Assembly: GCF_965363235.1 (NCBI RefSeq)
Contig: NC_134843.1
Location: 48,727,535 to 48,791,534 of the forward strand
Source: Mytilus galloprovincialis
Lineage: Eukaryota; Mollusca; Bivalvia; Mytilida; Mytilidae
Direction: 5' to 3'
DNA length: 64,000 nucleotides
The notes beneath the pieces are model-generated. The model saw only the letters and a program-made list of their open reading frames with translations, was not told where the DNA came from and did no database searches. Below, one piece after another: positions 20,038 through 45,720 of this stretch (positions within the stretch are counted from its first letter, which is position 1; each line of letters starts with the position of its first letter). The position numbers and the translations under genes were made by a program.

Positions 20038-20990
20038 ATGGCCAAATTTCAATTATACACGATTGTTGCGCCTTGCTTTATTATCCTAGTGTGTTTAAGT
20101 GGAATAGAAGCTGGAGGAAAGTTTACCTGGCTTCAGAGGGATAGATTTGATGAAATTGTTGGAAAATACATCAATGCTATAAAGGGACACAACTGTGCAC
20201 CAAGATCGAAAGCTGATATGATGATGAGGGATGATATTGTTACACAAATTCCGAAAGCAAACGAGCTTCTCAGTAAAGTTTTCTATTCAAATAGATCTGT
20301 GCTAGTACATATGCATAATATGGCGCTTAATAGGGCATTCTTTATGAGTTATATATTACAACGAATGAATAGTACTGAAGACTACTCTATACAACCTAAT
20401 CTTCATTATCTCTACATGTCAGTAACAGCAGATATTAATGCTAATCCATATGCCATTAACGGATCATCCATCATTTTTGACAAAGATGTCTATTATCCGA
20501 ACTGGTTGACAAATTTGGATTTTAATAAAACTATTCCATTGTTCGGTGTCAAAGGTTGGCGGAAAGACAATACTTTTGCGCAAGGAAATTTTATTCGAGA
20601 ACCTAATAGACGAGTTGTTCAATGCCAAGATATAGGAGCAGGGAACAATAAAAATTATACCCATGACGGATATAAGATGAACCCTTGGTATGACTTTTGG
20701 CTACCGGATCTAGATGGACAGGAAGACAAATCTAATAAATTTACATATAGCGTAGGAATTCGATATTCAAACGTAACGGGAAAATTCATCAAAGAAGATT
20801 TCGATGTTTTCAATTTTTTTGGTCCAAATCTACCTAGTCAGAGCGAAAAAGACATTGGAAAAATGCCAGTCAGATTTACAGTACCATATTTTGATTGTGG
20901 AAAATCTAACACATGGAAAGTAAGCGCCGTAGCTCCAATCGTTGATTTCTTTCCAAGATATTCAAATTATACACACATGAGACGACAGAG
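20038..20990 (+). CDS. Gene A exon 1: signal peptide and Cache-like 1
   Basis: ATG at 20038 follows GACA and opens with a good signal peptide. The exon ends at donor GTAAGT (20991) in phase 2. Its first part is much closer to gene B than its second part. Confidence 0.9.
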
Positions 20991-23900
20991 GTAAGTACAC
21001 GTCATCCATCAAAATACTCAGCGTTTAAAAATACCATTTAAACTTCAATATGTATTATAACTGAAAGTGCGTACGGGTTATATATGTGATGGCTATTGTT
21101 CTTCTGCTAAATTTTGATTGACACATGATGGAGCCCAGCTCAATTTATTACTTGATTCTAAAGTTAGAAATGTCAATTTTTAAACATACTTTAAATGATA
21201 TTTTTAAACGCATCTTAGCGAAGGTCAAATACATTTTGTTTGTAGTTAAGGTTATCAATATTTGAATATCATAATGATTTCTGATTAACATTCACAATAT
21301 ACATGCTGTCCAATGATTAAAAGAAGAAAGATAGGAATCGTTTTGATTTTGTACCACCGATATAAGCGCTAGTAATACCCCCCTAAAAAAAAAAATAGTA
21401 AAAAAAATTTCGGCGAAAATTTGACTGAGCTATGTTTATTCAAGATTCAATTAAACATTCAGAGTTAATTTTTCATATTCATATCAAGGGCTCATGAATA
21501 TTTTGACATTTTTCTTTCACTGAATATTACAATTGACACAATTACTTTATCCGTTCTAAGAAAGTATTTGCTTTTTTTTCTAGATTTGTTGGAGTGATAA
21601 CGATGGATACGGATTTTATGAAAATTGACTTTAATCCATGTGGAGTCAGCGCTGGAAATCCGGGACCAAGCTACCTTGCAGGAGTAGCAAGGTGTAAAGA
21701 TCACACTGGAGTAAGTTATTTCACAAGTGGGCCGTTTAGAAAAAAAGAAAAAAATATGACAGCGTATCTTTCGTACATTGAAATACAAAATACAAAAGTG
21801 TCAATGACCAACGTCATGTGACTTAGGACCATAACGCCCCTTTTAGAAACGTCATTCGATTTTCGTTTCATTGTCAATCTCCTATTAGTTGTTAATATGA
21901 ATGAATGCTTGAAACGTATTGAGAATAGTCAAGAAAAATATGGTGTAAGATGCGTATGTAATGTAGCAAATAAATTGATTTCCAATCAGAACATATTATT
22001 GATCGTCAAACATGTTTCATATCAATTTCCTATATACGAAATTCGACTTAGACAGAACTGAGGATGGAACAAATAAATACTAACGATTGTAGCCGTTTTT
22101 TAGAACCACACCAAATGTACATGTACAAACGAAAGACTGTGCATTTCTAGACCGTCACACGAGTAAAACATACCATAAAAACCTGCACAGTTAAACGATT
22201 TTATTCTCACATGGAGATTCCTGTTTAACAATAATGATGGACTATACCGATCTTTTATTGTTCGATATTTACTTATTTCTTCTAATTTTTTTTTAGTGCA
22301 AAGCTAAAAGCGGTAAAGGATATGGGCGTGGAGGATATATCTGTCACTGTAAGGGTAAATACGTATATCCTATGGATATCCAAGGACCATACGATGGAAA
22401 ACTGATAGAAATGTCAACCAATGAGGAACGGGCAAACAGTTTTAATTGCATACGTGGCGACCGTAAGTTTAAAATTGTGTTTTTATTGGAAATGCGTTGA
22501 TTGAATACTTAGATTTTACCATGTTCTATCAGAACGGATTGCTCTGTGTTTTACGTTCAAATGAGTATACGTGCTTCTATAGAAATAAAGTAAAAATTAT
22601 AATTAAAAAGGAACCATTCCAGTCACAGTAAACGAAAACGATAGATGTTTACTCCCAAATGAATACACGACGCTATATATATACTCCCTGTACGTGAATT
22701 ATTTTTCTATTTAATAATGATATTCAATTCACATGAATACATTATTACTATATTTTTACAGTAGGTCTCTGTCAAAACAATGAATTCTAAAATTAACAGA
22801 ACTACAATTAATAATATAGTGTGTTTAACACTCGAGCCAATGAATTATATTTTTTATTTTTTTTAGATTACCGCGTTCTTCCCATTGTTGACCAAAATGC
22901 CGACGTCACAGTTGAGTTTGGAGTGGCTAATATCAATACTCGTAAGAAGAGGTCACTTCTGTCAATAAATGAAACGGATTCCGTACACTTTGGAAGTGAA
23001 AAACAGGGGAAAGTTGAAATCCGAGAAAGAGAAACTGTAAAAGAAACTACCAAGGTTGAGTTTGAACAAAATCACAAGAAAAAGGAGAAGAAAAGGCGAA
23101 GAAAGAGAACCACGGATTACGGAGATAGATCCGAATTTGATCAAATGCGCTTTGATAGAATGATCAGGATTTTCAGACAGAAAGTCAGTATAAACAAAGA
23201 CAATTGCAAGAGTGTCCCTGCAAGTTCTCTCAATCTGCCAGGAGACGCTGCTTATGACGTTGAAAATCAATTTAAATACCAAGGAGCAACGGCCCTGAGA
23301 CTATCGCATTTTCTATCAATTTTCCTAGAAACTGTTCAGATAACTGATAACTTTGGTAATCTAAGAGGAGGAGGTAGACTTCATCAGGATCACTTATTTG
23401 GAGAAGTCTTAGCCAACGTAATGGGAGATCATAGAATTTTATCAAGTGGAATTTTCTTCGAACCATACATCTTTGAAAACCAGGATGGAACTGCTAAAGA
23501 ACTTTTCGGTCCGTATGCCTTTAAAGATCGAGGCGTTGCTAAGGCTATAGATATGGCAGGTTTACCAAGAAAATATATATTTGAAGACTGGTACCAGAAC
23601 ATTAAACAGAGCTGGGAAACTAATACAGCTAAACTCAAGAAACATAAAATGAATCAACTGGTACGCTCAGACGCAAAAGGGACCAGCTCAATAAAATTTG
23701 AATATTACCCAATAGGATACTACGCTCCTAAATATGAAGATGGTCTTTGGTCTCATCCTAAATTCAAATGCGATGGAATGACAGATAACTGGGTTATGAC
23801 ATACAGTATTCCTTTCTTCAGAAGAGACTATGTTGCAAAGAAAAACAAATTCGCGTAAGTATAAAAAACAATGACACTGTGTTTTTTTTTTTTTTTTTTA

Positions 23901-26390
23901 TCAAGTTCTTAATATTGTCATCTTTAAATTAACGATGAAATGTATGAAAAAACATATCTTAACAATTTGATATCATCATTATTTTACCACGATAACCATT
24001 TTATTTTAAATAGCTTGTATTTTTTTGTAATTTCATATTTTTAAAAGTTCTCAAATAGTTATGAACACAGTAATAATCATATGTCTTCCTTTATATTTTT
24101 AGGGGAGTTGTAACTGTCGATGTGCCTCTTGATAATTTGGAAATAAACCAATGTCCAATGGCATTTAGTGTCGCTAATGCCTTCAAAAATACAGCAAGAT
24201 GTCATAAGTCTACTAAGGTAAGTTTTGTATATCATTTACAGTGTGTCTTTTTGGGGTCTAAACGTGAAGCGGGATTGCCGATTTTTTGTAAGCGTGACAC
24301 GTGAAAGTCAAATTATTGTGTCGTGAAAACGGGAAATGAGGTCTAGCGGGACCCGGGAAATGACCAAAAAAAAAAATAGAATTGCTTTCGTAGATAGTGT
24401 AAGCGGGATGCGGGAATCTGACTAAACAGTAAGCGGGATCCGGGATGGGAACCTCCCAATGAGACCCCCTTTACACACTATTCGATCCCGTGCATCACTA
24501 ATAAAGATTATTCAAGAAGCAATAAATAATTAGAAATGTCACTAGACAGAAAAGGGTAAATAAACAAGTAGTTTCATATACAAATTGGGAATACACATTC
24601 ATTAATCGATCAGTGGATATACAGAAAAAAAGATTAAGGCACCAACCCTTCATCTTTTGTGGCAACACAATTTTTTCATACTTTAATGTTTTTTTTTTCA
24701 AATTTATTTAAATAACACAGGTGAAATAACATCCATGGACATGATAATTATTTTTTAAAACTCAATGCTGAATCAAATTGTTTTCCAAATTTTCAATGGG
24801 CTCAAAAGTATTGTTCACTTCCCTCTGAAACACATTATCGTATTCCAGAAATGTAGAATCAGATAAATCATATTTAAACACATGCCCATTACTCTGAATT
24901 ACCCAAATTATTGACAGAACATGAATCCACCCTATCTTTTTTTAGCACACTCCACTATTCTGTAACTTTTCGGCTGGTGTCACTACCGTTATTATTTTCT
25001 AAACTTTATGTCGTTGTCCTTTTTCCTTCGACTTATAAATTGTGATTTCCACTTTGGTATGACAAATTGTATCTTTTTCTTTTTTGTTAATCATCTATCC
25101 ATCAAATTTCATCTCGTATACGATATGCAGCGTTTCTCTCCTCAAATAGCAACAATTTTTAACTTCCAATGTAGTATCTTCATGAATGTATATTTTACTT
25201 CCAGTGATTTCCACTTTGGTATGACAAATTGTATCTTTTTCTTTTTTGTTAATCGTCTATCCATCAAATTTCATCTCGTATACGATATGCAGCGTTTCTC
25301 TCCTCAAGTAGCAACAATTTTTAACTTCCAATGTAGTGTCTTCATGAATGTATATTTTACTTCCAGTGTAAAATGATTCCTGGGTATAAATACTCACGAG
25401 GAGCATACCGATGTGATTGTAAACAAGGATACGAGTACCAGTTTGCTGATGGAAAGAACTTTATAGAAGGAAGTTTAGTAGAGCTGGAATATGAAAAGAA
25501 AGTCAAGGGACTATTCAGTCGGTAAGTCATTTTAAAATAAATTGAATAAATGAAAGCATATACTTTTTATACAATTTTGTCATTTTTATTATGTTTTTCA
25601 TTTCTTTTCATTTGTAAAAGCTTATTCGATGACTTTATTAGATTTTCTTTGTCAGATATAGTAACATTTGTTTACTTTAATAGGCATCTATGTTGGAATT
25701 TTTTTTTTTTGTCTCGCATCTTGTAACAAATATTCAATCAAGTTTGCATTAAAAAGAATATTAAACAAAACTAAACTGTTATTGAGCCGTATATGTATTA
25801 AATGAAAATGACATTTCTTTTAAAAGTTTATGAAGGGAAAAATACTTTACATACCATTTTTATCCATTTGTTTGATGTGTTTGAGCTTTTGATTTTGCAA
25901 TTTAATTAGGGACTTTCCGTTTTGAATTTCCTCGGAGTTCTGTATATTTGTTATTTTACGTTTTACTGGACTGAAGAATTTCGATTTATTTGTTACCAGT
26001 GGACTTTGTTTGCAGAATGGTCAACTTGAATCAGACACATCACAATAAGCTACAAATACCATGAATCCTGTCTATGATTAAAAGACGTAAAATCGAAAAC
26101 TTAAAAACTTTACAATAAATAAAAACAGTTGAAAAGAGTCGAAAGATAACCGGAGATTCACAAACTCATAAGTCAGAAAAATTTGAACAATTCCATGGCA
26201 AAAACGAAAAACGATCAATAAACAAACAGTTCACAGAAGCAAAGCATAGACAATTTAATTCTTATCTTCTCTTACTTTTTGTAGGTTTGATTCTCTAGTT
26301 TGTCGAGTACAAGGAGGCGCCACTGCAGTCGCTGTGAATTACTTTTCAGTTTTGATAGGGATGATTGTGTCATTAATGATGTCAAGATAA
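20038..26390 (+). CDS. Gene A: secreted two-module Cache/EGF-like protein
   Basis: Seven coding exons (20038-20990, 21584-21710, 22297-22462, 22867-23854, 24103-24217, 25367-25521, 26285-26390) join in phase to 869 aa. A signal peptide is visible (hydrophobic core IILVCL, likely cut after GIEA). Module 1 (about 27-440) is a Cache-like fold with a PWY motif at 216-218 and YFDCG at 284-288, then a cysteine-rich EGF-like part. A linker (441-496) starts with RKKR and ends with KRRRKR. Module 2 (about 497-840) repeats the plan. The C-terminus is hydrophobic (FSVLIGMIVSLMM), as in a GPI signal or short membrane segment. Exon 1 alone has seven N-glycosylation sequons. The modules recall GPR158/GPR179 ectodomains, but no seven-helix part follows. 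Ligand and function are unknown. Gene B is a close tandem paralog. Confidence 0.88.
21584..21710 (+). CDS. Gene A exon 2: end of Cache-like 1, start of Cys-rich part
   Basis: 127 nt, entered in phase 2 and left in phase 0, between TTTTTTTCTAG and GTAAGT. It encodes FVGVITMDTDF...FNPCG...ARCK, the counterpart of exon 5 in module 2. Confidence 0.9.
22297..22462 (+). CDS. Gene A exon 3: EGF-like 1
   Basis: 166 nt starting with a Cys codon straight after TTTTTTTAG. It encodes GGYICHCKGKY and ends in phase 1 at GTAAGT, and is the counterpart of exon 6. The final cysteine (FNCIRGD) matches the LVCRVQG of exon 7. Confidence 0.9.
22867..23854 (+). CDS. Gene A exon 4: linker with furin sites and Cache-like 2
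   Basis: 988 nt, phase 1 in, phase 2 out. Residues 441-444 are RKKR and 491-496 are KRRRKR, bracketing a charged Lys/Glu-rich linker that is 31 residues longer than in gene B. The rest is the second Cache-like region, with DNWVMTYSIPFF near its end. An ATG at 22821 lies in the intron and is not the start. Confidence 0.9.
24103..24217 (+). CDS. Gene A exon 5: end of Cache-like 2
   Basis: 115 nt, phase 2 to 0. It encodes GVVTVDVPLDNLEINQCP...TARCHKSTK. The VDVPLD ending is typical of the last strand of Cache domains. Confidence 0.88.
24270..24495. repeat. GC-richer insert in intron 5
   Basis: AGCGGGA-type motifs recur at least four times (AAGCGGGATTG, TAGCGGGACCC, AAGCGGGATGC, AAGCGGGATCC), each followed by more GGGA/GGAA. 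Composition stands out against the AT-rich intron, so it is probably an inserted element. It ends near CGTGCATCACTAAT. Confidence 0.45.
25043..25366 (+). repeat. 162-bp tandem duplication ending at the exon 6 splice acceptor
   Basis: Units 25043-25204 and 25205-25366 differ at only about three positions. Each ends in the same TATATTTTACTTCCAG. The second is the true acceptor of exon 6. The first is a decoy, followed at once by TGA in the reading phase. Confidence 0.93.
25367..25521 (+). CDS. Gene A exon 6: EGF-like 2
   Basis: 155 nt starting with a Cys codon, phase 0 to 2. It encodes YSRGAYRCDCKQGYEY and IEGSLVELEYEKK. Donor is GTAAGT at 25522. Very similar to gene B 44404-44558 and to broken copies at 48.8-49.7 kb. 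Confidence 0.9.
25857..25990. repeat. R1 copy in intron 6 of gene A
   Basis: ATCCATTTGTTTGATGTGTTT, GAGCTTTTGATTTTGC and GGGACTTTCCGTTTTGAATT, then CTCGGAGTTCTGTAT. This is the R1 core in plus orientation. Confidence 0.75.
26085..26280. repeat. R6-like copy in intron 6 of gene A
   Basis: GAGATTCACAAACTCATAAG and AAAAACGAAAAACGATCAAT match the pattern of the R6 copy at 53945-54185; degenerate. Confidence 0.5.
26285..26390 (+). CDS. Gene A exon 7: last Cys and hydrophobic tail
   Basis: 106 nt after TTTTTGTAG. It encodes FDSLVCRVQGG, then a hydrophobic stretch ending SLMMSR and TAA at 26388-26390. A small-residue patch (GGATA) before the hydrophobic run could hold a GPI omega site. Confidence 0.85.
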
Positions 26391-27330
26391 ACAGAGTAAA
26401 ACTCATCTAGAAAACATGATATGTATCATCAGTTACAAAAGATGTACACGAGAACATTTTTCATTTACAATGTATAAGAAGAGAAGAGACAAACAATTGT
26501 AACTATTAATGTGCATTTATCATATGATTCAAAATCATTCTTAACTTCTGCAATTGATATTGGATTGTGTACGTTATAGAAGTATAATCACTTGTTTATC
26601 TACTTAGTAGAACAAAAAACGTTTTTAGTCATAGCGAATATAAAATTGATGTATTCATGCCTTTTTGGTTGATGAATTCACGAACATATGCCTCACATTG
26701 AGACTGATAGGGTCTTGTAAAGACAACTCTGAATAACTTATGTTATCATAAAACATTGAATATATGAAATCCATTCCAAGTATTATTATTACAGCAAATT
26801 GTATTAATCAAGAAAGAACGTGACTCATGGTACCAGTGCTATTTTGTATTATTGAATTACTTATTTTTAATTTTTATATTTATATTTTTTACATTGACTT
26901 GAAATCCATTTTTATGAATCTCATTTTTTGTAAATTTATTTTATTGGAATGAGAAAAAATTGGGTGTTTTTGTTATCGTTTCCAGTTTTGACCAAACTGT
27001 TCCTAATGGCAACTGCACTATTCAAATGTCAATTTATCGCATGTCAAATTCGTTTTAATTTAATTGTTATAGAATATCATTCCAGGGTTTATTCCCGAAG
27101 GTCCCATTTTTTCGGATTTCTGATTGTCTCACATTATTTTATTATCTTTAAAATAAATCATTGCATGAGCATATTAGCAGTTGATATCAATTATAAATGG
27201 ATATCAATTGATGAATTAATCATGAGAATGCACTTTTGGTTAAATAATATAACATACATTGATAATCGAGGTCTATACTATAAACAAATATCGGGATGAG
27301 AGGAGAATTCCAATATTTTGAGAATAAATA
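26391..27330 (+). other. Gene A 3' UTR and flank
   Basis: No coding signal. The first clear AATAAA is at 27323-27328, about 930 nt after the stop. It is a possible polyadenylation signal; nearer variant signals cannot be excluded. Confidence 0.35.
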
Positions 27331-27829
27331 TATATATTTTCTATTATCTTCAAGGTTTTATTTCATGAATAAACACATACACCCAATTTTGTTTCTTCTT
27401 ATTTCATTTCTATGATATGCAGATTAGGGTTTGGAGATTGATTTGAAGAAAAATATATATATTTCAAATCACAACGTCACATAAGCATTAATTTCATTAC
27501 CTTTTACCTGTAATTAAAAAAATCTGATATTTGGAAAGACATCAATTGGACTAGTGACTTAGATTTTTTTTTAGAAAATTGAATTCCATACCAGATTCAT
27601 TATCATTTATTCAAATTTTCATTCTTTGTTAAAATACAGCTTAATAAAAACAAGAGTTCACACACTGACTTGTCTCAACTTCTTTCCTAATCATTGATGT
27701 TATGTGGATAGTCCTAAATATAAAGCTTTACTACAACTATCACATGATACAAGAAAATGAGATCAAGGTCAAGGTCATATAAACCGACCAAGAAATAAAA
27801 CCAAAACGAGAATCACCTCAGATCAAAAT
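27331..27829. other. Intergenic, nothing recognised
   Basis: AT-rich; no exon or repeat recognised. Confidence 0.4.
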
Positions 27830-28060
27830 ACCAAAATAGTTATAAAGCCAAGCATCCTTAGTTTTTTGAAAAATGCATACTTTTGTAAACAGGAAATTTA
27901 TAAAAATGACCATATAATTGATAATCATGTCAACACCAAAGTGCTGACTTCTTGGCTGGTGATAACATCAGGGACGAAACGTCCACCAGCAGTGGCATCG
28001 ACCCAGTGGTGTAAAGTAAACTTAGTACCAAAGCATAATGTACATGTTAATATTACAGAA
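27830..28060. repeat. R2-related repeat
   Basis: GTAAACAGGAAATTTATAAA, AAAGTGCTGACTTCTTGGC, GGTGATAACATCAGGGACG and AAACGTCCACCAGC match, in inverse, the block at 62055-62190. Confidence 0.65.
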
Positions 28061-29959
28061 TCCCAAAGCGGAAAATTCTTCAAAATGTGTCTCCATACAA
28101 GCGCATAGATGAAATTGAAGCGTTAGTACATCGACTTGTTCAGTATCAAGTATTCAGTAGTTCAACATAATTTATAATGTGAAAATAATATCTGATACCT
28201 TTAACGACAATGCTATCTATATATGACTTTTAAATTTTCATAAATATTGTTCTATTTTGTTTTGTATCGTACATTGAAAATCTGTCAAAATTAATTAAAA
28301 CATTTCCATAACCCTAGTTTATCTACCCAGTCAGGCTTCTACTTCGTCAAAATTATCTCCCCATTACGCCAGTTCATTTTCACAATCGTAGAAATGGAAG
28401 CCATTGTAGGGATGACGCGCTGCCAATTTTGCTCTCGGAAACCGATAAATTTATACACATTTCACCATTCCGATCCTTATATGGCAGTTGTATTTTAAAA
28501 GACAAATGTATCAACTAGCTAATTAGCATCAGTTAATGATCTTGTCTGCATTGATTCAACTTAAAACTATTGTCTGATCGGTTGTCAGGTGGAATTTTTG
28601 AAAATTCATTAACATTTAAAAAAAATCTAGTGAAATATTTCGTGGAAGGGTAGACTAGATTTTTTTAGTGGTTGAAGACTATAAACCCTAGTTTTCACAC
28701 ACAAAAAATTATAATTTTTCGAAGATATGCTTTTTCATTATCCAACTTGAAAGACTGTCGTAAAGTACTTTCAGTAAAAAAATAGCTATTCGAACACACC
28801 TACTCTGTTTTTGTGATTCATTAGATAGGTATTTCACTTGACCCATATATTTCATCTTTTAGTACTGTGATCTTTTTATGTTATAAAGTCAACCTGTAGC
28901 TTTTATATATAAAAATGATAGAATCTGAAGCGAGACGATGTATGAAATATTCTTGCTTTGTACGATATCAAGACAAAATATTCAACTCAAACACGCCCTA
29001 ACATAAAAAGGTGCACTCGATTTTCTCTTTTCGATACAATTGTTACCCATTTTTTTTGAATTTTTTCTTGAGTCACATAATGGAAGGGCAGACACGAAAA
29101 TTACTGAACTAATAGATTGATATGTTTTCCGTCCGTGGTAATTTTTTTAAAAAAAAATCGGATTTATGCATTTTCTACATCCAACTTGAAAGATACCCAT
29201 GTCGTCGACTTGATATCTAATTGTTCTGTTTCACTATGTACTAAATAAATTAAACTTATGCAAATGGTGTTTTTAAAATAAAACACGTCGTAATTGAGAA
29301 GAAAATTGTAATTTTGTTTGTTTCTATTAACTTTTAAAATTTTTGTCACTATAGTAATCATTACAGTAAGCATTTATCGCCTTCTCCAACAAAGAGCTTC
29401 GATTCTTTTGTTCTATTTCAACCGGGTTTCCGACTGTACCAATAACCATCGGACAAAGTTAAAGAATAGATTTCGATAAACATAGTTAGACAACAATGAT
29501 TCCGTTGCAGGATTTTCTGGTGTGTTTCTTGTTTTAGTTTGTTTGAAAATTAATGTTTTTTTTACCGTTTACTTATATCATCTGTTAGATTGATCAACAT
29601 TCATTTATATTTTATAGAAGAACAGATAACTACGTATAATGTTTGTACAAATAATAAATTATCATCAAAAGTTTGGTTAAACTTACGGAATAACGTATTT
29701 GACGCTGTGACCCTTATCGGTATATCATTTATCAAAGACCTCTGGATTCCCTACAACTCACTAGTAGATTGGCAAAGATTAGTTTGATTGCATTCCTTAT
29801 GACATTAAGCAATAGAGATAGCATTACAATTGACATACTCTGTACGCTAGATGCAACCATTAAGATATTGCGAGAATAAACAAGCGAATATTGAGTTAAC
29901 AGCATACGAGTGAAAATGAACTCTGAACAAATCTCAATAATAACATTAACGGTACCAAT
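28061..29959. other. Intergenic, nothing recognised
   Basis: No supported gene or repeat; short open frames are AT-rich and lack splice context. Confidence 0.4.
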
Positions 29960-30065
29960 TTTCCTGCACCAGGTGCACATTTCAACAATACATGTCTCTT
30001 CAGTGATGCCTGGGCCAAAATATTTGAAAGTAAGGTTCCTTATACTGTACTTACATAGCATTTTC
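29960..30065. repeat. R5 copy
   Basis: GCACCAGGTGCACATTTCAAC, TGTCTCTTCAGTGATGCC and GGGCCAAAATATTTGAAAG; same pattern as 17958-18120. Confidence 0.65.
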
Positions 30066-31498
30066 AATACATATTAAAGTCTAAACGGTTATAAGAATCG
30101 TTAGGATAATGTCCCATTCACGTATGCCTTTTCACTCTGTTATTCTAATTAAACGTGTATGATACCTATTTTCGTCATTAGTGGCAATTGATCAACGAAA
30201 CTGACACTGTGAGGAACACTTAGTGAAGGACATCAGGGCAAAGGTCTGTGTAAATCTTTATGAGAGTGCTCAAAAGAAAATGATGAACAAAGAGTACTTT
30301 GATATATTTACTAATATCCCAAGGGTTTGTTTTCTTATGTGCAATATACGATTCCGATTCAGTGCATAAGAAACATGCACCTTGAACAGGTACCTGTCCA
30401 CTTTAATAAAACTCTAATGTTGGGAAGCATATATATTGAAAATTCTTAAAACAGTATCAAAACAAAAGAAAATCTGAACAGAACAGTCAAAATTACATCA
30501 TATTCTTTTTTGACACGGTCAAAATTTGCTGTCTCCTATTTATAAGCAAACCTGTTAAAAAGTGGGACTCGAGAAAGCGAAGTAACACAGGCACTATACA
30601 TTATGTTTCGCAAGTCGACAATAGTTTTGTTAGGTCAAACGACTTCAGTAACAGAGAGACCATCGACGCACCTGTTTGCAAGAAAGAGGTCCTGAACTAC
30701 TGAAAACATTATATTTTTATGGAAAATACGATTATTGCTACATCTTGGAATTTACACAAAGTAATAAGGTGCGTCTGCATGGAAATCACGCTAAAACACT
30801 AACTTTGGTACTGATGAAAATTTCAACCATATGTTTATTATTTTCATCGTTTATGGTTTATTCAAAATAGAACATATGTGTATTAAACTGAACTCTTCAA
30901 GTTGAGTTTTAGTTAGAAATTTTTGTCACCCAATTTATAATATTTTATTGATATCTGTACATTTGTTAGTTGGTACCTTATCCCGCCTCGGTTAAATACG
31001 AATAGAACATACTCATTCAGCTGTTAGTTTTGTTAGCATTATACATACAATTTTACATACTTAAATTATAAACCATTTCAGTAGTTACAAGTATGATTCT
31101 TATATCATTTGCATACCTATAAATACTTGAATTGGATTGGTCAATTCGAATTTTTCTCTTGGTTTACACTTCGATAAACCATGTTTCCGAAACTACTTTC
31201 GTAATCTATTCATGCCCGATACACATTCTTGCAGGGATACTGGGATTTTCAGCAAATTGCGATTATAAAACAATTGCATAACAGTTGTTTCTATTCTAAT
31301 GCATTTATAACCAAAATTTTCAAGGGAAAGATTATTTCGTTTTAGATTCTGATGCATTTATCGGACATTTATATTTTTTAGAAAGTAAGATGGCGGCGTA
31401 CTCCTTAGTTACGACATGCCATTGTGCTTTTGATGGCAAATATAGCAGCCATCAAACAAATAATGTAAATTAATAATCGCGTATGTTTGGCTGAAGAA
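30066..31498. other. Intergenic, nothing recognised
   Basis: No supported gene or clear repeat. Confidence 0.4.
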
Positions 31499-33367: not shown

Positions 33368-34478
33368 TAGGGATGGCAACGAGTACTCGAGTACTCGGGT
33401 ACTCACTCGGAAGGCCGAGAACTCGAGTACAGTTTTAGTACTCGGATACTCGTTTGCCTGTTATACATCTAGAGATATTTCTCTTCACATTTCAACTCAC
33501 TTTAATTCCGTTGAAATATCCCCTTCGTAATATTAAAAAAAAAAAAAATTAACAACATAAATATGTTTATCCTGAGGATACCTTTTGTTATATTAATACC
33601 AGCAATGTCCTTTTCATGTGCACAACTGGTAACTAAAAATATAAATTTCAAAAAGTATTGCGTCTGAAATTGTAGACTAGATCATATTCTAAACAAGAAC
33701 AAAATCAAAGTGACCGGCGGTGAACCCTACGCAACTGATTCGAGACCTTTTAACGGTGCTTGTACACGGATGAACACTTTGGATCAATAATAAACTAATC
33801 ACAAACCGTAATTTTTTTTACCTTTGTTTGTTAATCAAGATTTCTATGTAAACGTGATTAGTATGAGATTAATTTAATGACTCTGTATTTGAAACTTATC
33901 TATAATTGTTTAATTTACAATTTCAAGATAGGCGAGAGCTACATTCAATCCCATAAATGGAAAATAAACTGACAACGTCATGGCTAAAAAACAGAAGAAA
34001 ATCAGACAAACGATAGTGCAAAAAAAAAAAAACAAAAAAAAACCATCAAAAGTAAGACTGAGCAGCACGAAAGAGCGCAAATAATTTGAAGTCCAACATT
34101 GCTGTGGATAAATTAATGGACAAGTCGTATTATAAAAAATATCAACTCCCCAGGAACAGATGATACATATATTGTCTACTTTGTCGGACTTTATATGCAA
34201 AACATTTAGACTTATATTTGAATTTGGTTCTTTAACACATGCACACACATGATAGGTTATTTGTAAAAAAAAACCCAACGGCGATCAGTAATTCATTGTT
34301 TATTTGACACAAAAAAAAACAGAGGATCAAACAATGTTTGTAGTAAGTTTGTCTACTGCATCCCTACTTAAATCGAAACTTTTCAATAGACGTTTCAGAT
34401 TCATCCGAGTAATTGAGAGTACTCGAGTATCATGACCGAGTATCCGAGTATTAAATTTTAGATCTTTTGACATCACTA
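33368..34478. mobile_element. hAT-like non-autonomous DNA transposon
   Basis: The left end TAGGGATGGCAA and right end TTGACATCACTA form 12-bp terminal inverted repeats with 10 of 12 matches. The flanks ATATTTAC (33360-33367) and ATAATTAC (34479-34486) look like an 8-bp target duplication with one change. Both features are typical of hAT elements. Subterminal GAGTACTC/ACTCGAGTA motifs repeat at both ends. At about 1.1 kb with no transposase frame, it would need a helper. An R6-like block (33958-34070) is nested inside. Confidence 0.65.
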
Positions 34479-34486
34479 ATAATTAC

Positions 34487-36084
34487 ATTTGAAATTAGGC
34501 ATTTAATTCTATACATGCTATGATAAAATTCGAAAAAAATGTTGTTGATTTAGAAAAAAAATATTCTTTTACAATTTAAAATTTCGCACATGGCATATGT
34601 TTAGGACGTCCTTACAGAAGATGCGTATGCGATGGTTTCGAGACGCAACTTAAAGAGTGTCATAAGATGATACTAAGTCCATCCTAAAATTGGTCTTATG
34701 AAGTGTCTTAGGAAGAATCTTAGGATACTTCCGAGAACACATCTCCTGGTTTCATAGCTAGCTTTATCTCTCACGTGTATGAAAGTCTCATAGAATTCCA
34801 TTATATTGACAATAATATGCAAACAAGACAAACAGATATAATATGAATATTTTTGAATTGATTGACTATAAAGGGGCATGTAAAGTATTGGAATTATTGG
34901 TCCCACCATTGGACTATTTAAAATGAGTTAGTTATTTACACTTTTGATGAATGTGAGCTAAATTAAATATTGGTATGCGTCTTTGGGACAAACATCTATA
35001 ATGTTGAACTATACGGACGGCATCATGATTTGGTTGATCGTCATAAAATATCTGTGTCACGAATGACAATGGATATGCAACGTGTCCATTTCCTCCTTTG
35101 TCTCGATTGTAATCCCCGAATAAGGCAGGTCAACTAAACTTTCTTTGATTGACTATCATGACGGGTGTCACAAGTGGACAGGAACTGCGTATTTGATGAT
35201 AGTGATTATGCATTATTTTTCGCTATTGTATCACGTTCTGTTTGATTGTCTAATGTAATTGTAGTTTGAAACAATTTGACAAACCCTTCGCCCTGAACAT
35301 TTCTTGTCAAACTTTTACATCCAGTAAATTTTTAACGCTAGATAAAGTATTTGCACCGATGATTTATAAATTCATTGATGTTGCAAAGAAATAAAAAAAA
35401 GCTCCCCTATCGTTTGATTCTTAATTATCATATATTATTTATCAACGTACCGAAACATATCGTTCATTTGAGATTCAGCATTTTGACAAAATTTATCAAA
35501 TTTATAGCATCCCATACTATCAAACTAATGGCTTATATGTTTCAATATATCTATTTATATCCATGAAGAAGCCTTGGTCTAGTTCTCATTTCATGAATTA
35601 CTACTGTAACTTTATATCACGCACGATATTTTTTTTTCATTGTTGAATGAATGGTGTATCATTACAGAAGGTGTCTAAACGATTTACTGATAAAGATGTA
35701 TTGAAATTCAATGCTCTGTTTTGCCAGTATATTGACTATTTAAATGAAATTACCATAAAATGAAAGCTTTTGAATGAACAAGAAATAAAGTTAATGCATT
35801 CAAGGCAACACATAATAAATTACAACACATAAAATGCATAGCCTTCAAAAATACTTTTTTAAGCTATTTGTCAAAATATAATCTTTTATACATAATGATC
35901 ATTTGTGGGTCAGAAATTATATTCGGATTGCAAAATAGTTGATAGGATTATTACAAGTGTTCTCATAAACAAGTATACTTTTCTTATTTATAAATGAGAA
36001 AAAAACTCTTCGGGCGGTAATGTAACAGTGTAACAGTGGTATCAATCGAAAATTAATGAATTAACAGCAGTTCAAAGCCAATAA
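34487..36084. other. Intergenic, nothing recognised
   Basis: No supported gene. A short CTTAGGA-rich patch lies near 34665-34735. Confidence 0.4.
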
Positions 36085-36245
36085 CAACGAATAATTTTGG
36101 GTCCTCAATGCTCTTTAGCTTTTTGATTGTTTGGCATTTTATCTATTTTGATCTGAGCATCACTGATGAGTCTTGTGTAGACGGAACATCTGTCTGGCGT
36201 ATATAATTATAAGCACCTTTGATAACTATTTGGTATGTTGAAATT
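36085..36245. repeat. R2 copy, plus orientation
   Basis: TTTTGGGTCCTCAATGCTCTT, GAGCATCACTGATGAGTCTTG and TGTCTGGCGTATATAATTAT, then CACCTTTGATAACTATTTGG. Confidence 0.75.
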
Positions 36246-36617
36246 GAGAATCTGTCAACGTTATTTCAGATTTACTCATCTAACATAAAGTAAATTTTTG
36301 AAATAAAAAAATCAAAACAACACAAACAAACGTATATGTTGACGTCTGTTTTGTATTTGTTTTATTACGTAGTTGGGTTTTTAAAAAATCAACGTTCATC
36401 GTTCATCTTTCATATAAAAAGGAGATTTACGATATACTAGTATATATATTTAACTATTTATGTGACTGCATCTTACGATCCTTTACGATCAATAACTTAG
36501 CTAATCAGCAATCAACTCCGTCTTCATGCTTAATATAGCATGTACTGTGTTCCAACTCTAGATTCTTCTGACGAGGAAAGGTAATACTAGGCCAGCGGCA
36601 GCTTTATTTTTAGTTCA

Positions 36618-36770
36618 TTCTTGGTGACCGAGAGGTCTAGAGCGCATAGGTCAGGCAGTGTTGCCTTGATATCCCATATAGCATGAGTTCGAATCCTACC
36701 GAGGGGAGAACAAAAATTTGCTTCCGCAAATTTGCAGATTTACCATTCTTATGCTGATAATTAGAGGAAT
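36618..36770 (+). repeat. tRNA-derived SINE-like head
   Basis: GTGACCGAGAGGTCTAGAGCG has the D-arm/A-box pattern of leucine or serine type tRNAs. GAGTTCGAATCCT at about 36684-36696 is a good B box. The spacing allows a long variable arm, but the acceptor stem does not close well. This suggests a tRNA-derived SINE or tRNA pseudogene, not a working tRNA. Confidence 0.5.
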
Positions 36771-37250
36771 TATAGATTGAGGAGAAGATATCAATCCTGT
36801 CCATCATTCCCTGAATATTTAAAAATCAGTTTGGGAAGAGTAAAAGCTAGTTTAATAAAACACGGTATTTAGATATGTAGTTTTTAAATGACATTTCTAA
36901 TGGGTTAAGTATTGAAACTAAGACAGTGGTAAGTGTTCAATAATTGCTCACTTCTACTCTATTATACTTTGGAGGATAGGTGTCCTGATGGCAATCATAC
37001 CACAACTCCTCATTTTATATTTTTTGTACTGAAATTAGTATATCCCAATTGAAATTACTGGAAAAGTACGGATAGTCCTCAATACACTTCATAGTAAAGT
37101 TCTTTTGATAAATCAAGCTGCACTGCACTGAAATTGTTTTAATTTTTATTATTTTGGTGAAAAAAGAAAGGTATTTGATAATGATGATGAAACAGAACCA
37201 CGGTCACTGTTCTATCTGGTACCTGGTGATGCATCTATTTTGTTTTGCAG
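36771..37250. other. Region just upstream of gene B
   Basis: Holds an R3-type scrap (GTGTCCTGATGGCAATCATA near 36979) and otherwise AT-rich DNA. It ends in the pyrimidine tract and GCAG acceptor at 37250 that precedes the ATG exon of gene B. Confidence 0.4.
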
Positions 37251-37298
37251 ATTTGTTTAATATTTTGATATACCAGTCAATCCACTCATAATTTGGAA
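37251..37298 (+). other. Gene B: 5' UTR part of ATG exon
   Basis: Starts after TTTTGTTTTGCAG and contains TTTAATATTTTGATA, matching the same place in gene A. This supports a spliced 5' UTR in both genes. Confidence 0.5.
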
Positions 37299-38254
37299 AT
37301 GAAAAAGATTAAGACAACAACTGTTCTGTTCAACCTCTTCTATTGTATGCTATTAAAAGAAGAATTAGTTGTGGCAGACGGGGTCTTTACGTGGCTTCAG
37401 AGGGATAGATATGATGAAATTGTTGAAAAATATATCAATGCCATAAAGGGACACAACTGTGCAAGTAGATCAAAAGCTGATATGATGATGAGGGATGATA
37501 TTGTTACACAAATTCCGAAGGCAAATGAGCTTCTTAGTAAAGTTTTCTATTCAAATAGATCTGCGTTAGTTCATATGCATAATATGGCCCTTAATAGGGC
37601 ATTCTTCATGAGTTATATATTACAACGAATGAATAGTACTGAAGACTACTCTATACAACCGAATGTTCATTATCTCTACATGTCAGTAACAGCAGATATT
37701 AATGCTAATCCATATGTCATTAACGGATCATCCATAATTTTTGACAAAGATGTCTATTATCCGAACTGGTTGACAAACTTAGACTTTAATAAAACTATTC
37801 CGTTATTCGGCGTAAAAGGTTGGCGAAAAGACAATACCTTTGCTCAAGGAAACTTCATACGGGAACCAAATCGACGAGTTGTCCAAGTTAAAGATATTGG
37901 AGCAGGAAACAACAAAAATTATACTAATGAAAGGCATAAGATGAATCCTTGGTACCAGTTTTGGTTACCAGACTTAGACAAGCATGAAGATAAATCAAAC
38001 AAATTTACTTACAGCATAGGAATTCGTTATTCTAACGTTACTGGAAAATTCATTAAAGAAGAGTTTGATGTCTTCAATTTTTTTGGTCCAAACTTGCCAA
38101 GTCAGAACGAAAAAGACAATGGCAAAATGCCAGTTAGATTCACTGTTCCATATTTTGATTGCGGAAAATCAAACAAATGGGTAGTCAGTGCAGTATCACC
38201 TATTGTTGATTTCTTCCCACGATATTCCAACTATACTCATATGAGACGGCAGAG
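37299..38254 (+). CDS. Gene B exon 1: signal peptide and Cache-like 1
   Basis: Ends AGACGGCAGAG before GTAAGT in phase 2, as in gene A. Near-identical to A over roughly 37460-37780, then clearly more diverged at silent sites. Confidence 0.9.
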
Positions 38255-41200
38255 GTAAGTACTCTATGAACACTTGAGGCTTTCATAATTTAATTATGCA
38301 TATACATGTATTGTGCATTGATTCAGATTAAAACTTAAAGTGTTGTGATTCTAAACAGATAATAAGGAAAACATAACAATAACAGAAATCTATTGATGAT
38401 ATTTAAGACTATTAGGATTTCTGACACTTCTCCGTTACTAAAGATATTATGTTGCCAATAAGATGTCCTCGGGTTGCTATTTCATTGTAGTTAGTACTTG
38501 TGTGATGGATATATAGATACGCAGCCTCGTCTGATCCTAGTATGGACTTACTTCATATTGGAAGAGTGTCACGCTCTTAATAATCGTCTTTGTGATGTAT
38601 TAACAGCAACAGAAAAAAAGACAATGAACGTGTTGCCCGCCGTGTCATTTCGGTGAAAACTACAAAAGCCAATATATTGCATAGGGGTCGTTGGTGTCTC
38701 ATGAAGACAGAATTAAAATTTTAAATACTGATACCTGACAGATAAATGTCTTGTTGGTGTCTCATGAAGACAGAATTCAAATTTTAAATACTGATATCTA
38801 ACCGATAAATGTCTTGTTGGGGTCTCATGAAGACAGAATTCAAATTTTAAATACTGATACCTGACAGATAAATGTCTTGTTGGTGTCTCATGAAGACAGA
38901 ATTCAAATTTTAAATACTGATATCTAACCGACAAATGTCTTGTTGGTGTCTCATGAAGACAGAATTCAAATTTTAAATACTGATACCTGACAGGTAAATG
39001 TCCTGTTGTTGTCTCATGAAGACAGAATTCAAATTTTAAATACTGATATCTGACAGATACATGTCTTGTTGGTGTCTCATGAAGACAGAATTCAAATTTT
39101 AAATACTGATATCTGACAGATAAATGTCTTGTTGGTGTCTCATGAAGACAGAATTCAAATTTTGAATACTGATATCTGACAGATACATGTCTTGTTGGTG
39201 TCTCATGAAGACAGAATTCAAATTTTTAAATACTGATATCTGACAAATAAATGTCTTGTTGGTGTCTCATGGAGACAGTTTTCAAATTGTAAATACTGAT
39301 ACCTGACAGATAAATGTCTTGTTGGTGTCTCATGAAGACAGAATTCAAATTTTGAATACTGATATCTGACAGATACATGTCTTGTTGGTGTCTCATGAAG
39401 ACAGAATTCAAATTTTTAAATACTGATATCTGACAAATAAATGTCTTGTTGGTGTCTCATGGAGACAGTTTTCAAATTTTAAATACTGATACCTGACAGA
39501 TAAATGTCTTGTTGGTGTCTCATGAAGACAGAATTCAAATTCTATGGTCATCTGAAAGTTGTTACATTGTAGATTTATGATGCATGTTGTTAGTTTTGAT
39601 TTTCATGAGCCGTACCTTCTCCTTTGTGTTAAAAGCAGATCATCATCAGAACATTATAATCCTAGAAAAAAAACCACAAGCTAATTAACAGCGCTGATAT
39701 GAATAAGTATTATTTCTTTGTATAGATTTGTTGGCGTTGCGGTTATGGATATTCATTTTGCAAAAATTGATTTCAATGCATGTGGAATCAGCCCTGGTAA
39801 TCCTGGACCAAGCTACCTTGCCGGGATAGCAAGGTGTAAGTCAAATACAGGGGTAAGAAAATATCTTTATTCTGCAAATTATGAGAACAACACTATAAAT
39901 TGAATGTGTCCCAAACGATTTTCTAGATTTACCTTTATCAGGCACACCCAAAGCCAAATATTTGAAAGCCAATGATGTACAAGAACTGAAACACTGAAAG
40001 AGCTGTACAACTAAAAAAAGAACCTACATATTATAGCCAAATCCATCCAGTCAACTTAGCCTTTTTTGTTGTGGTCGAACAATTTTATTCAAAGTACTGT
40101 TGACGTCATAGTTTTAATTGGGATCCTCATCGTAGTCTTCGATTAAGTAATGTTCATTTTATTTGTTCGGCTAGTTCGACAATCCTGACTTTTCTCTGTT
40201 TCGAAAACTCGTAAATATGAATTGAAAATTTTCCATCAATCGACGAACATTGTATATTTAACTGCATATACACGTGCAAATTATGTGACATGAACATCTA
40301 TAAACTGCTATCCGCACCAGTTCCCATTACCTATGATAGTAACGTCAAAATTTTTCACGAACTTCAATAATGAACAGTAATGACACAAACAACGACAAGG
40401 TACATTAGGTATTATTCATTATCATTTTCAACCGAAAAAAATCAAGTCAAAAGTAAAATCACCAAAATACTGGACTCCGAAGAAAATTCAAAACGGAAAG
40501 TCTCTAATCAAATGTCAAAATCAAAAGCTTAAACACATCAAACGGATAATAGTTGATACAGGCAAAGTAGTCCTCTTAAATGTCTTGCAATATAACAGTT
40601 TAAAAAAAAACAACAGTTTTTGTTTAGAAACTCTTGCACATTAATTGAACTGTATACATATATATTTGTATACAGTGTAAGCATTTGAGTGGTAAAGGAT
40701 ACAAGCGTGGAGGATATATATGTCACTGTAAGAATAAATACGTATATCCTATGGATATTCAAGGACCATACAATGGAAAACTGATAGAACAGGCAACCAA
40801 TGCGGAGTATGCAAACAGTTTTGGTTGTATACGTGGTGATCGTAAGTTGTAATGTACATGACAAAAATAATGTTATTTATTATTCATGCATGTGTTCTAA
40901 TTTTAAATATTGTGTATTTGGTCAAATATGTTATAAAATATGTTCAAATTTGACCTAACGTGGAGTTTAATACAGAAACGCACATTAAATCATTTTCTTA
41001 TATACTAGTCAACAAAAGAAACGATACAAGCCAATGTATTTACCATATATAATTAAATTGTAAACACTGTGCCGAGTTAAATAATTGCCCAACATGTCTA
41101 ATGTTTACAGACTGTTATTTTCTTATCAAATCTATTGATTTAAGACAAAAAGCGATATTCTGCTTAAAAGTTTGAATGCCTTTGAAGATTTTTGAATAAT

Positions 41201-44200
41201 CAATTCTCATCTTCGAAATTTGGTGCCGACTTTTGTCAACATTTTCTACAAAATGAGTTGACCCGTCTGTTTAATAACACGATATTCTATCACTTTCCAA
41301 AGTATGATTAGCATTTTTTTAGCCATTGCGTTGTCAGTTTACTTTCAATCTTTGAGTTTGACTATCCCTCTAGTATCTTTCGCCCCTCTTTTTACATCTG
41401 TTTACTCACGCTGTATTGATAAATTGTGTTTCACTTCTATTTGTGTGAATTTTAAATTTACTAGAGAGATAAAGGAAAAGAAAAATAATTGCTGGAGGAA
41501 TTTTAGTCCCAGAGGGTTTCATCACCTTAGTTGTCTTCCTCACCATTATAATGATTTAGAACGATGTTTTTAGAATTCCGCTTTGACAAACTAAGACATT
41601 TTTAAGAAACTCTTTAAAAGAAAGTTGACATAAGATGAATATTGCTGTTCTTTCCCTGTGTCTCTTTTGATCATATAGCTTCTAAAGTTTCTAGAATATG
41701 ATGAATAATGAAAGAAGACAACAGGAAACGAAATGAATTAAATACCAAAAAGACAGAGGCTACAATGTGGAAAATATAAACAATGTAAATGGTCTCTGTA
41801 TGAAAAATATATCAAGGCATTGGCAAATTTTCAGCGATTCTGCAATTTCTCCGAGTAGCTATATGCATGTATATTGCGAACTGATTTTCTCACACTTTGA
41901 TAAGAGACACATTCATGTTACGTAGAAACAATAATTCATTTTGTTTTAATAGATTACCGTGTTCTTCCTATTGTTGACCAGAAAGCTCATGTCACTGTTG
42001 AATTTGGAGTAGCCAACATAAATGTTCGGAAAAAGAGATCATTCGAGTCAATGAATGAAACAACTTCATTTATATATGGCAACAGAACACGGAAGAAAAG
42101 AACCACTGATTTTACCAATAGATCTAAATTTGATCAAATGCGTTTTAATCGAATGATAAGAATTTTTCGACAGAAGGTGAGTATAAATAAAAACAATTGC
42201 AATTCCGTACCTGCAAGTTCTCTTCATTTACCTGGTGATGCCGCTTATGACGTGGAAAATCAATTCAAATCTCAAGGATCAACAGCACTAAGACTATCAC
42301 ATTTTCTCAGCTTGTTCCTAGAAAATATTCAGGCCACAGACAATTTTGGTAATTTAAGAGGTGGTGGCAGATTGCATCAAGATCATTTGTTTGGAGAAGT
42401 CTTAGCTAATGTAATGGCAGACTATAGAATTATATCTAGTGGAATTTTCTTTGAACCATACATTTTCAAAAACCAGGATGGAACCTTTAAAGAACTCTTT
42501 GGTCCGTATGCATTCAAAAGTGAAGGTGTTGCTAAAGCTATAGACATGGCAGGTTTACCAAGAAAATATATTTTTGAAAACTGGTATCAGAATATCAAAG
42601 AGAGATGGAAAACAAATACGGAAAAACTCGAAAAATATAAAATGAATCAGCTTGTACGTTCAGACGTCAAAGGAACAAGTGCAGTCAAATTTGAATATTA
42701 TCCGATCGCTTACTTTGCTCCAAAATATGACGATGGTATGTGGTCCAATCCAAAGTTTAAATGTGATAGAATGGTAGATAATTGGGTCATGACTTATAGC
42801 ATTCCATTCTTTCAAAGAGACTATGTAGCAAAGAAAAATATATTTGCGTAAGTACAGTCCTATAAACAGCTATAAAATATCTTTATATATTGATTAAGTT
42901 CAATAGCAAGTTGAACATCAAACAAAATACAAGATGTATGCGTTATAATGAATAAAAAAAGATACATAAATAATACGCTAATTACAGGCACCAGACTATC
43001 CTATAAGTTAATAATATATTAACAATTCTTAACTAGATTTTATAAGATTTAAGATTCATAAATGAAAATTGACTGTTTTCGAAATTTTAAGTTGTTAAAA
43101 TTCATCTTAAACAAAGAAGAGAACCCCATATGTACAAAAAATACCGTATTACAGTTTTCAAATGTTTATATACCGAATGCAGCGAATCGCCAACCAGGTG
43201 AATATTCCCCGTTAACGCTGGGAAATTCAAAGAAAAAAAAGGTACCAGAGTAGCAGAGAGAGATGGAATACAACACAACGGTGTTATATGAGATGTTCTA
43301 AATAATTAGACGTTACTTAGTACATTTGATAAACATGTAGGAGATACATAGCGGGTAATCAAAAAAACAACTCGTCTAGCACTACAATATCATCGGCAAT
43401 TGGACTTTCAATTATTCAATGATTTTTTCCAGAAGGATTTTCAAGCCAAATATTTATATTTTGTTTGCTTTTTCAGTGAAAACGATATTAAATTAGTTTA
43501 AGTTCTTGTCCAATTTCGACAAGCGACAACATATTTCCACCTTTTAAGTATCGTTATTCATGGTATAACACTTTTACGTGAAGAATTGAAAACATACCAC
43601 TGAAATTTTAGACACTAGCAAAAAATACATCTTTCGAATAATATGATTAAGCTACATTTTAAAACAAGCAGCTTCGTAAGCAACAAAAAATGCAGTTTGA
43701 TTTTTTTCTCCAGAAAATGATTCAATTAAAATATTCCGCTATAGATTATGTTACAGTCATATTATTATCGGTTCGAGGATTTGAACAATATTGTTATAGA
43801 AAAATTTAGAAATGCAAAAAAAAAACTAAACGTTAAGAAAGACATAGAACACAGAAATAATATATATGTACGATTGTCTACACTTTTTACAGAGGAGTTG
43901 TTACGGTTGATGTTCCTCTTGACAACCTGGAAATAAACCAATGTCCTCAGTCGTTTAATGTTGCCAATGCCTTCAAAAACACAGCGAGATGTCATATATC
44001 TACCGAGGTAAATGTTGTTTTAGACGAAAATTGTGTCTATTCGTTTGTCGTTAGCCTTCACTCAGTTAGCATGATATTACTCTATTATTACACTCAGTGT
44101 ATTTTATAAATTTTGAAATTTTACTACATACTTTATTTCGTACAGGTTTGCATTTCTAATATTTTATTCATAACATCCAAGAAAAAACATTGTAAGAGAA

Positions 44201-45720
44201 TAGGTTTGAGGGAACAACCATTCAACTCTGAATTTATATTTTCCTTCTCTGGTTAAAATGTTTATTTCCTCAAAGTTTAGTAATTCTAAAACCTTCAGTG
44301 TAAAATGGTTATTATCTAATAAATAATTGATAAAGCATATTTTACGCTTATGGTGTGTTTAGTTGAAAATTAAAGACCCATGCAGCCAACATTTTTTTTT
44401 CAGTGTCAGAAGATACCCGGGTATAAATACTCACGAGGAGCATACCGATGTGATTGTAAACAAGGATACGAGTACCAGTTTGCTGATGGAAAGACTTTTA
44501 TAGAAGGAAGTTTAGTCGAGCTAGAGTATGAAAAGAAAGTTAGAGGACTGTTTAGTCGGCAAGTTATATGTTTTTGAGCTCCGACTTTAAGTTGCAGCAT
44601 GTTAAAGAACTAATTGATGGTTTAACATAAATTGAGTATGATATTCAATAAATAACTGCATCAGAGGCCATCATACGATCATCTACAAATCAGTGAAAGT
44701 GTACACTGTACTCGTTTGTAACTAGAAGTGTACATGCATCATCGTTAGACAAATAACAATTATTTAAAAAGAAGGGGGAAGGAATTAATTTAACCTATGA
44801 AATTGAATCAAAAGCAATCATAGTTTTTATTATTGAACCAAACTAACATCTAGACTACTCAAATAGCGTGATCTAAACTACTGTTGGGATAAATATTGCA
44901 TTATAAAACAGAAAATGAAAACGTCCTAACAATGAGTTCATTTCATTTTGCACTTAAGATGGTACCAAACACCTCGACTTAAATTAATTTGGCTCTTTAC
45001 ATTTCATAAAATAAAACATAATTATTTACTTTGACCATTTGACAAACATATAAACATTTCAAAAATCTTGAACTACACTTTATCGGAAAATTTCAATGGA
45101 TACATAGCAGTTTGACAAACACACATTTTGTTCATTGAGAGTCTTAAAATTACCGTTACAAACGAACGTGATTGACGCGTTCAGCTGATTTTTACAAATT
45201 TTCTCCCTGTCGTGTTATGTACCACCATGCTAAATCTTTGCCAAAACTTAACTAACACTGGACTTTAAACATTGCATAAAAGATAAATTTGATTCTTTAT
45301 TGCTAAATTCGTATCAAAAAAAAAAAATAAAAATACAGTAACAGATATACATTTTAGTGTCATTGAAAACTAGTGAAAATCAGTTGCCGAAATAACTTTG
45401 TAGATTATTCGCAGTTACATCATTTGTTCCTATTTTTAACAAAGAAATAAATGTTCGGCAACTTTAAATGCGATCCCTTTCATTTTGGTATTTGTCTTTG
45501 CATATCTACAAAATATGCATGTAGTGAAATTTGGTCATTAAGAGATATCAAATACAGATACTTTATAGAAAAGTAACAGTTAATTATCAACTTCTTGATT
45601 TGCAGGTTTGATTCACTAGTATGCCGCGTTCAAGGTGGAGCCACTACAATCAATTCTAACTGCATATCAATATTGAAAGTGGTAATTGTGGCATTTATGA
45701 TTCAAAGATTTACAGAGTAG
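37299..45720 (+). CDS. Gene B: secreted two-module Cache/EGF-like protein, paralog of A
   Basis: Seven coding exons (37299-38254, 39726-39852, 40676-40841, 41953-42847, 43893-44007, 44404-44558, 45606-45720) join in phase to 842 aa. The intron phases are identical to gene A. The first ATG is at 37299; the frame is open two codons earlier but only from a TTG. Signal peptide MKKIKTTTVLFNLFYCMLL is followed by module 1 with the same Cache-like and EGF-like parts. RKKR occurs at 442-445 and again at 463-466, bracketing a linker of only 17 residues. Module 2 follows. The tail differs from A: the hydrophobic run ISILKVVIVAFMI contains Lys and is followed by QRFTE, so GPI anchoring is less certain. 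Intron 6 has a GC donor. Exons are conserved but introns are unrelated to A, so the duplication is not very recent. Confidence 0.88.
38686..39541. repeat. 63-bp minisatellite in intron 1 of gene B
   Basis: About 13.5 copies of a 63-bp unit containing TTGTTGGTGTCTCATGAAG, ACAGAATTCAAATTTTAAAT and ACTGATACCTGACAGATAAA. Variants with GGAGACAGTTTTC at about 39272 and 39462 lie 190 bp apart, showing a three-unit higher-order repeat. Because 63 is divisible by 3, long false frames appear on the minus strand. Confidence 0.95.
39726..39852 (+). CDS. Gene B exon 2
   Basis: 127 nt between TTGTATAG and GTAAGA, phase 2 to 0. It encodes FVGVAVMDIHFAKIDFNACG and ends with ARCKSNTG. Counterpart of gene A 21584-21710. 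Confidence 0.9.
39935..40075. repeat. R5-type fragment in intron 2 of gene B
   Basis: AGCCAAATATTTGAAAGCC and ATTATAGCCAAATCCATCCA belong to the tail part of the R5 family. Confidence 0.55.
40430..40560. repeat. R1 copy, inverted, intron 2 of gene B
   Basis: GAAAATTCAAAACGGAAAGTC, ATCAAATGTCAAAATCAAAAG and CTTAAACACATCAAACGGAT are the reverse complement of the R1 core. Confidence 0.75.
40676..40841 (+). CDS. Gene B exon 3: EGF-like 1
   Basis: 166 nt after TTTGTATACAG, Cys first, phase 0 to 1. GGYICHCKNKY matches GGYICHCKGKY of A. Confidence 0.9.
41953..42847 (+). CDS. Gene B exon 4: linker with furin sites and Cache-like 2
   Basis: 895 nt, phase 1 to 2, between TTGTTTTAATAG and GTAAGT. It opens HYRVLPIVDQ as in A. 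The exon is 93 nt shorter than in A, all in the linker between the two RKKR sites. Confidence 0.9.
42848..43892. other. Intron 4 of gene B
   Basis: 1045 nt, AT-rich, no repeat family recognised. The open frame over 43748-43936 runs through the exon in the wrong frame and is not a gene. Confidence 0.6.
43893..44007 (+). CDS. Gene B exon 5: end of Cache-like 2
   Basis: 115 nt, TTTTTACAG to GTAAAT, phase 2 to 0. It encodes GVVTVDVPLDNLEINQCPQ and ends ARCHISTE. Confidence 0.88.
44404..44558 (+). CDS. Gene B exon 6: EGF-like 2, GC donor
   Basis: 155 nt after TTTTTTTTCAG, the same length as in A. The donor is GCAAGT at 44559 where A has GTAAGT. Using it keeps the length and phase; reading through meets a stop soon after VICF. 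Confidence 0.85.
45606..45720 (+). CDS. Gene B exon 7: last Cys and tail
   Basis: 115 nt after ATTTGCAG. It encodes FDSLVCRVQGGATT, an extra Cys (SNCIS), a hydrophobic run and a polar QRFTE end, with TAG at 45718-45720. A possible ATTAAA signal is at 45806-45811. Confidence 0.82.

Follow-up and report, generated by a model that had tools for sequence, protein, structure and literature searches.

The question raised by this locus is whether two neighbouring mussel genes encode secreted proteins built from a doubled GPR158-type receptor ectodomain with no receptor attached and, if so, what such proteins would do. Splicing of the raw sequence of the window (the whole 64 kb stretch of DNA analysed) placed gene 1 at 20038-26390 and gene 2 at 37299-45720, both on the plus strand, and reproduced the seven exons, the ends and the product lengths (869 and 842 aa) of the original prediction. 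Intron phases are 2,0,1,2,0,2 in both genes and splice sites are GT-AG throughout, except for a GC donor after gene 2 exon 6. The proteins are identical at 696 of 838 aligned residues. Exon 1 (20038-20990 in gene 1; 37299-38254 in gene 2) encodes the putative signal peptide and Cache 1, and exon 4 (22867-23854; 41953-42847) encodes a linker and Cache 2; these exons were assigned from open frames, splicing and Pfam matches, and exon 1 of both genes also from a module-1 search. The remaining exons were placed by splicing. In gene 1, exon 2 (21584-21710) carries the last Cache 1 strand and the start of EGF 1, and exon 5 (24103-24217) the last Cache 2 strand and the start of EGF 2; exons 2 and 5 of gene 2 lie at 39726-39852 and 43893-44007. 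EGF 1 is encoded in exon 3 (22297-22462; 40676-40841) and EGF 2 in exon 6 (25367-25521; 44404-44558). Exon 7 (26285-26390; 45606-45720) supplies a hydrophobic tail, recognized by hydropathy, and the stop codon. A signal peptide and a short hydrophobic end had been predicted for both proteins. Hydropathy shows both segments, although the N-terminal segment is weak in gene 2.

The window contains several repeats. The 3′ end of gene 1 intron 5 carries a 162-bp direct duplication (25042-25368, 98% matches) that reaches the acceptor of exon 6 and thereby places a second acceptor-like CTTCCAG ∼ 160 bp upstream. Gene 2 intron 1 contains a 63-bp minisatellite of 13.5 copies (38690-39541, 92% matches), and a TACA tetranucleotide array of ∼ 134 copies occupies 1295-1831. 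On the minus strand, 52385-53657 holds two open frames rich in cysteine that resemble, by eye, small secreted cysteine-rich domains; a Pfam search up to E 0.1 matched them to no family. Eight neighbouring ORFs were checked in Pfam and gave no family above its cut-off.

Both genes are intact and evolve under purifying selection. The open frames of exon 1 span 319 and 329 codons and those of exon 4 span 347 and 315 codons (genes 1 and 2 respectively); the longest chance open frame in 100 first-order Markov resamples of positions 18001-48000 was 178 codons. Comparison of the pair gave dN 0.110 and dS 0.840 (dN/dS 0.13), with ratios by part of 0.067 for Cache 1, 0.30 for EGF 1, 0.080 for Cache 2, 0.079 for EGF 2 and 0.59 for the tail. 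Closely similar tandem copies can arise from assembly, but it is extremely unlikely that the pair consists of unmerged haplotypes or includes a decayed copy: exon DNA is 81 to 90% identical, both genes have intact frames and splice sites, and the same form recurs in two older paralogs, and we reject a haplotype duplicate because of the dS value and the intact frames.

The original prediction of two Cache-like plus EGF-like modules per protein was borne out. PF22572 (GPR158_179_EC) matched two stretches of each protein, with E values of 1.3e-37 (gene 1) and 3.1e-39 (gene 2) and scores of 128.8 and 133.9 bits against a curated cut-off of 28.1; two further double-module genes, described below, scored 142.7 and 145.7 bits. 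The PDC/Cache family PF22673 also matched (E 1.6e-15 and 8.4e-13; 57.9 and 49.2 bits against a cut-off of 27). When the PDB was searched by sequence, GPR158 and GPR179 were the only chains with E < 0.01 (7.3e-07 to 0.001), and a four-row profile brought these matches to 4.8e-10 to 1.2e-05. The next chains had E values of 0.02 or worse, and in these searches no other fold matched better than Cache/GPR158. Modules 1 and 2 of one protein are ∼ 25% identical, and their profiles align over 307 columns (hhalign probability 98.9, E 1.1e-17). Profile–profile comparison with the ectodomain of a GPR158-type receptor on contig C14 aligned 123 C-terminal columns of module 1 (probability 98.9) and 193 columns of module 2 (probability 99.3). 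An AlphaFold model of exon 4, built with four window rows, reached a mean pLDDT of 32.4; the fold assignment therefore rests on the profiles and not on the model.

We searched the 1.385 Gb assembly (331 contigs, of which those concerned here are labelled C2, C3, C6, C8, C10 and C14) for further members and for the receptor part. The module-1 exon was found at four places in the whole genome: both genes of the window (100 and 92% identical to the query), C6:94.79-94.81M (67%) and C10:40.24M (47%). The latter two loci encode proteins of 884 and 879 aa, and their seven exons and intron phases match those of gene 1 and gene 2. The double-module genes thus form a family of at least four in this genome, and the confirmed tandem pair has to be extended accordingly. 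Genome scans gave, among the best candidates, 42 exon matches to PF22572 at E up to 10, the weakest of them at chance level, and 45 to PF00003, the class C seven-helix domain. PF00003 adjoins PF22572 on the same strand within ∼ 45 kb at all seven loci that we recognize as receptor-type: C14:27.88-27.92M, C3:50.34-50.36M, four at C3:76.06-76.18M, and C6:94.13-94.16M. The GPR158-type genes of this mussel are expanded: C3 carries five of the receptor type, and C8 and C2 hold several copies with a single module. The single-module copies that had no nearby PF00003 match among the best candidates lie at C8:23.84-23.95M, C8:43.62-43.71M and C2:57.198M.

The predicted lack of a seven-helix part holds for all four double-module genes, near which the genome scan placed no PF00003 match among its best candidates. 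In the GPR158-type receptors of this genome several kb separate the EGF exon from the seven-helix exons downstream, and gene 1 and gene 2 might likewise be the 5′ parts of receptors, their seven-helix exons having been missed or being joined by alternative splicing. We regard this as very improbable. Among the best candidates of the whole-genome scan PF00003 has no match in the 64 kb window, the nearest matches to the C6:94.8M and C10 genes are ∼ 0.64 Mb and 19 Mb away, and an in-frame stop follows the conserved exon 7 in all four genes. The cysteines of the D loop, the second cysteine loop of the receptor, which lies between EGF and the first helix, are present in the C14 receptor and in the five C3 receptors; they are also absent from all four double-module genes. 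As judged by homology, each protein consists of two GPR158/GPR179-like Cache plus EGF units with no recognizable class C seven-helix part and no D loop.

How the module came to be doubled was addressed with a tree of 19 rows and 108 of 125 columns, which included one C8 copy, without its EGF exon, and left out the other C8 copies. The four module-1 segments form one clade and the four module-2 segments another, each with support of 100/99, which indicates that doubling of the module preceded duplication of the genes. The tree does not fix the attachment of either module to a particular receptor, and long branches meet at that point. In the C14 receptor, as in each module, one large Cache exon precedes two introns, of phases 2 and 0. 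This layout fits descent of the three-exon block from a GPR158-type gene.

The cysteines are largely conserved across the family. Eight per module (two in Cache, six in EGF) are shared by the four double-module genes, and in all four the sixth EGF 2 cysteine is encoded in exon 7. Extra cysteines occur in gene 1 Cache 1 (one), in the gene 2 tail (one) and in the C6:94.8M gene (two). Sites of the convertase type R-X-K/R-R number two, two, three and three in the four proteins, two of them overlapping, and all ten fall in the linker between the modules. The gene 1 motifs are RKKR at residues 441-444 (22941-22952) and RRKR at residues 493-496 (23097-23108); those of gene 2 are both RKKR, at residues 442-445 (42027-42038) and 463-466 (42090-42101). 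Shuffled proteins contained 0.37 to 0.54 such sites each, and the observed counts were reached in 113, 103, 47 and 21 of 2000 shuffles of the four proteins; the count by itself is therefore modest evidence, and the shared position in the linker is the better argument. A few residues past the last cysteine the proteins carry small residues (GGA, GGA, SAA and GAS), followed by a hydrophobic end that is evident in all four from hydropathy and by eye. By the same criteria the exon 7 tail looks like a GPI signal, weakest in gene 2, whose tail contains a lysine and has charged residues at its end.

The putative ligand pocket was compared with GPR158 at E271 and D307, which we take to be its glycine contacts (positions counted along the PDB alignment, with chain numbers taken as residue numbers). 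In module 1 both of the aligned positions are Asp in all four genes; in module 2 the first is Lys/Arg and the second Asp, again in all four. In the seven receptor-type genes the first position is always Asp, and the second is Asp in six and Glu in the C14 receptor. On this numbering, the difference at the first pocket position makes it probable that the two modules differ in specificity.

From these features we propose, with confidence evenly balanced between acceptance and doubt, that gene 1 and gene 2, tandem paralogs from a family with at least four members, encode GPI-anchored, convertase-cleaved, receptor-less binding proteins with a double GPR158-type ectodomain, which would work somewhat like alpha2delta, a calcium-channel subunit. 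Secretion, cleavage, anchoring and the binding of a small ligand are what we infer. The protein would be secreted, a proprotein convertase would cut between module 1 and module 2, and a GPI anchor would replace the exon 7 tail and hold the product at the cell surface. There it could bind a small, perhaps amino-acid-like ligand, as alpha2delta does via its Cache domains, and might present or withhold that ligand or pair with GPR158-type receptors of the same animal.

Two main alternatives compete with this proposal. The first, which appears quite unlikely, is a role in structure or adhesion within matrix, mucus or cuticle, the Cache folds having lost the binding of small ligands. EGF modules and N-glycosylation sequons, of which there are 8 to 10 per protein, are common in matrix proteins, and the change of the module 2 pocket position to Lys/Arg would agree with such a role; against it, the Cache domains rank with the parts under strongest constraint (dN/dS 0.07-0.08) and module 1 retains the receptor-like Asp at both pocket positions. 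In the second, the same architecture would be freely secreted, the tail being unused as an anchor or module 1 being cut free, to give a soluble decoy or carrier. Cleavage at the convertase-type sites would release module 1, no disulfide clearly links the halves, each module having its own eight shared cysteines, and the gene 2 tail is, by eye, a poor GPI signal. The hydrophobic end is nevertheless kept in all four genes despite diverging sequence (tail dN/dS 0.59 for the pair), and we consider a soluble protein rather unlikely. The membrane-tethered form is the likelier of the two because the C-terminal end looks like a GPI signal.

The proposed tethered binding protein can be carried further, into a more speculative form that we think unlikely to hold in full. 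In this lineage the GPR158 ectodomain may have become a membrane-tethered, convertase-processed two-site sensor, in which the two Cache units of a single chain mimic the ectodomain dimer of the receptor, module 1 offers an acidic pocket of the amino-acid type and module 2 a pocket of changed specificity. Such a sensor might tune the seven GPR158-type receptors by sharing or withholding their ligand or by hetero-pairing with them. If true, it would represent a second, independent alpha2delta-like class of animal Cache proteins.

A 2023 review places animal Cache domains only in alpha2delta and CACHD1 (PMC9901441). GPR158 and GPR179 are now also counted as Cache proteins in a study of GPCRs in relatives of animals, which gives Cache plus EGF as an architecture of mGlyR/GPR179 receptors (PMC12716839). 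Among the open-licence papers listed by our literature search we recognized none on a receptor-less GPR158-type protein. At least four constrained genes that keep the GPR158 sensor without the receptor indicate that the module can be selected on its own. The double-module proteins would also be natural membrane-free constructs for the study of ligand binding by Cache domains, and a January 2026 paper states that no glycine-bound structure of mGlyR exists (PMC12834959). Furthermore, mussel proteins labelled ‘GPR158’ in data sets need not be receptors; a study of California mussel gill lists ‘G-protein coupled receptor 158’ among the genes stable in both transcript and protein (PMC10690110).

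Among known systems, the class C GPCRs GPR158 (mGlyR) and GPR179 are the closest in sequence, with a Cache domain followed by a six-cysteine EGF-like unit, the PF22572 match and the best PDB matches. Where Cache meets EGF, the C14 receptor has introns of phase 2 and 0, as do the double-module genes. GPR158 and GPR179 have one ectodomain unit and seven helices, whereas the double-module proteins have two units and no seven-helix domain. The linker of GPR158 comprises an EGF-like region held by three disulfides and a D loop that has two and contacts extracellular loop 2 (PMC8611064). The double-module proteins differ in lacking the D-loop cysteines, in having a hydrophobic end after EGF 2 and in carrying convertase-type sites between the units. 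The single-module C2 and C8 loci are alike in their GPR158-type Cache-end and EGF exons and in having no PF00003 match nearby among the best candidates; only one module is seen in them, and their two tree rows group with the C3 receptors (88/93). Alpha2delta (CACNA2D) combines two dCache_1 domains with a VWA domain, and the gene 1 and gene 2 proteins gave no Pfam match to VWA or dCache_1 at E up to 1; unlike that of alpha2delta, their Cache is of the GPR158 type and comes with an EGF unit. The likeness to alpha2delta and CACHD1 is one of analogy, in that several Cache units lie in one extracellular chain that is, or in the mussel proteins would be, cleaved by proteolysis. For alpha2delta, the nearest working analogue, the likeness extends to the predicted anchor: according to the 2023 review this glycosylated, Cache-bearing protein is cleaved into two parts and receives its GPI anchor once a C-terminal hydrophobic segment has been removed (PMC9901441).
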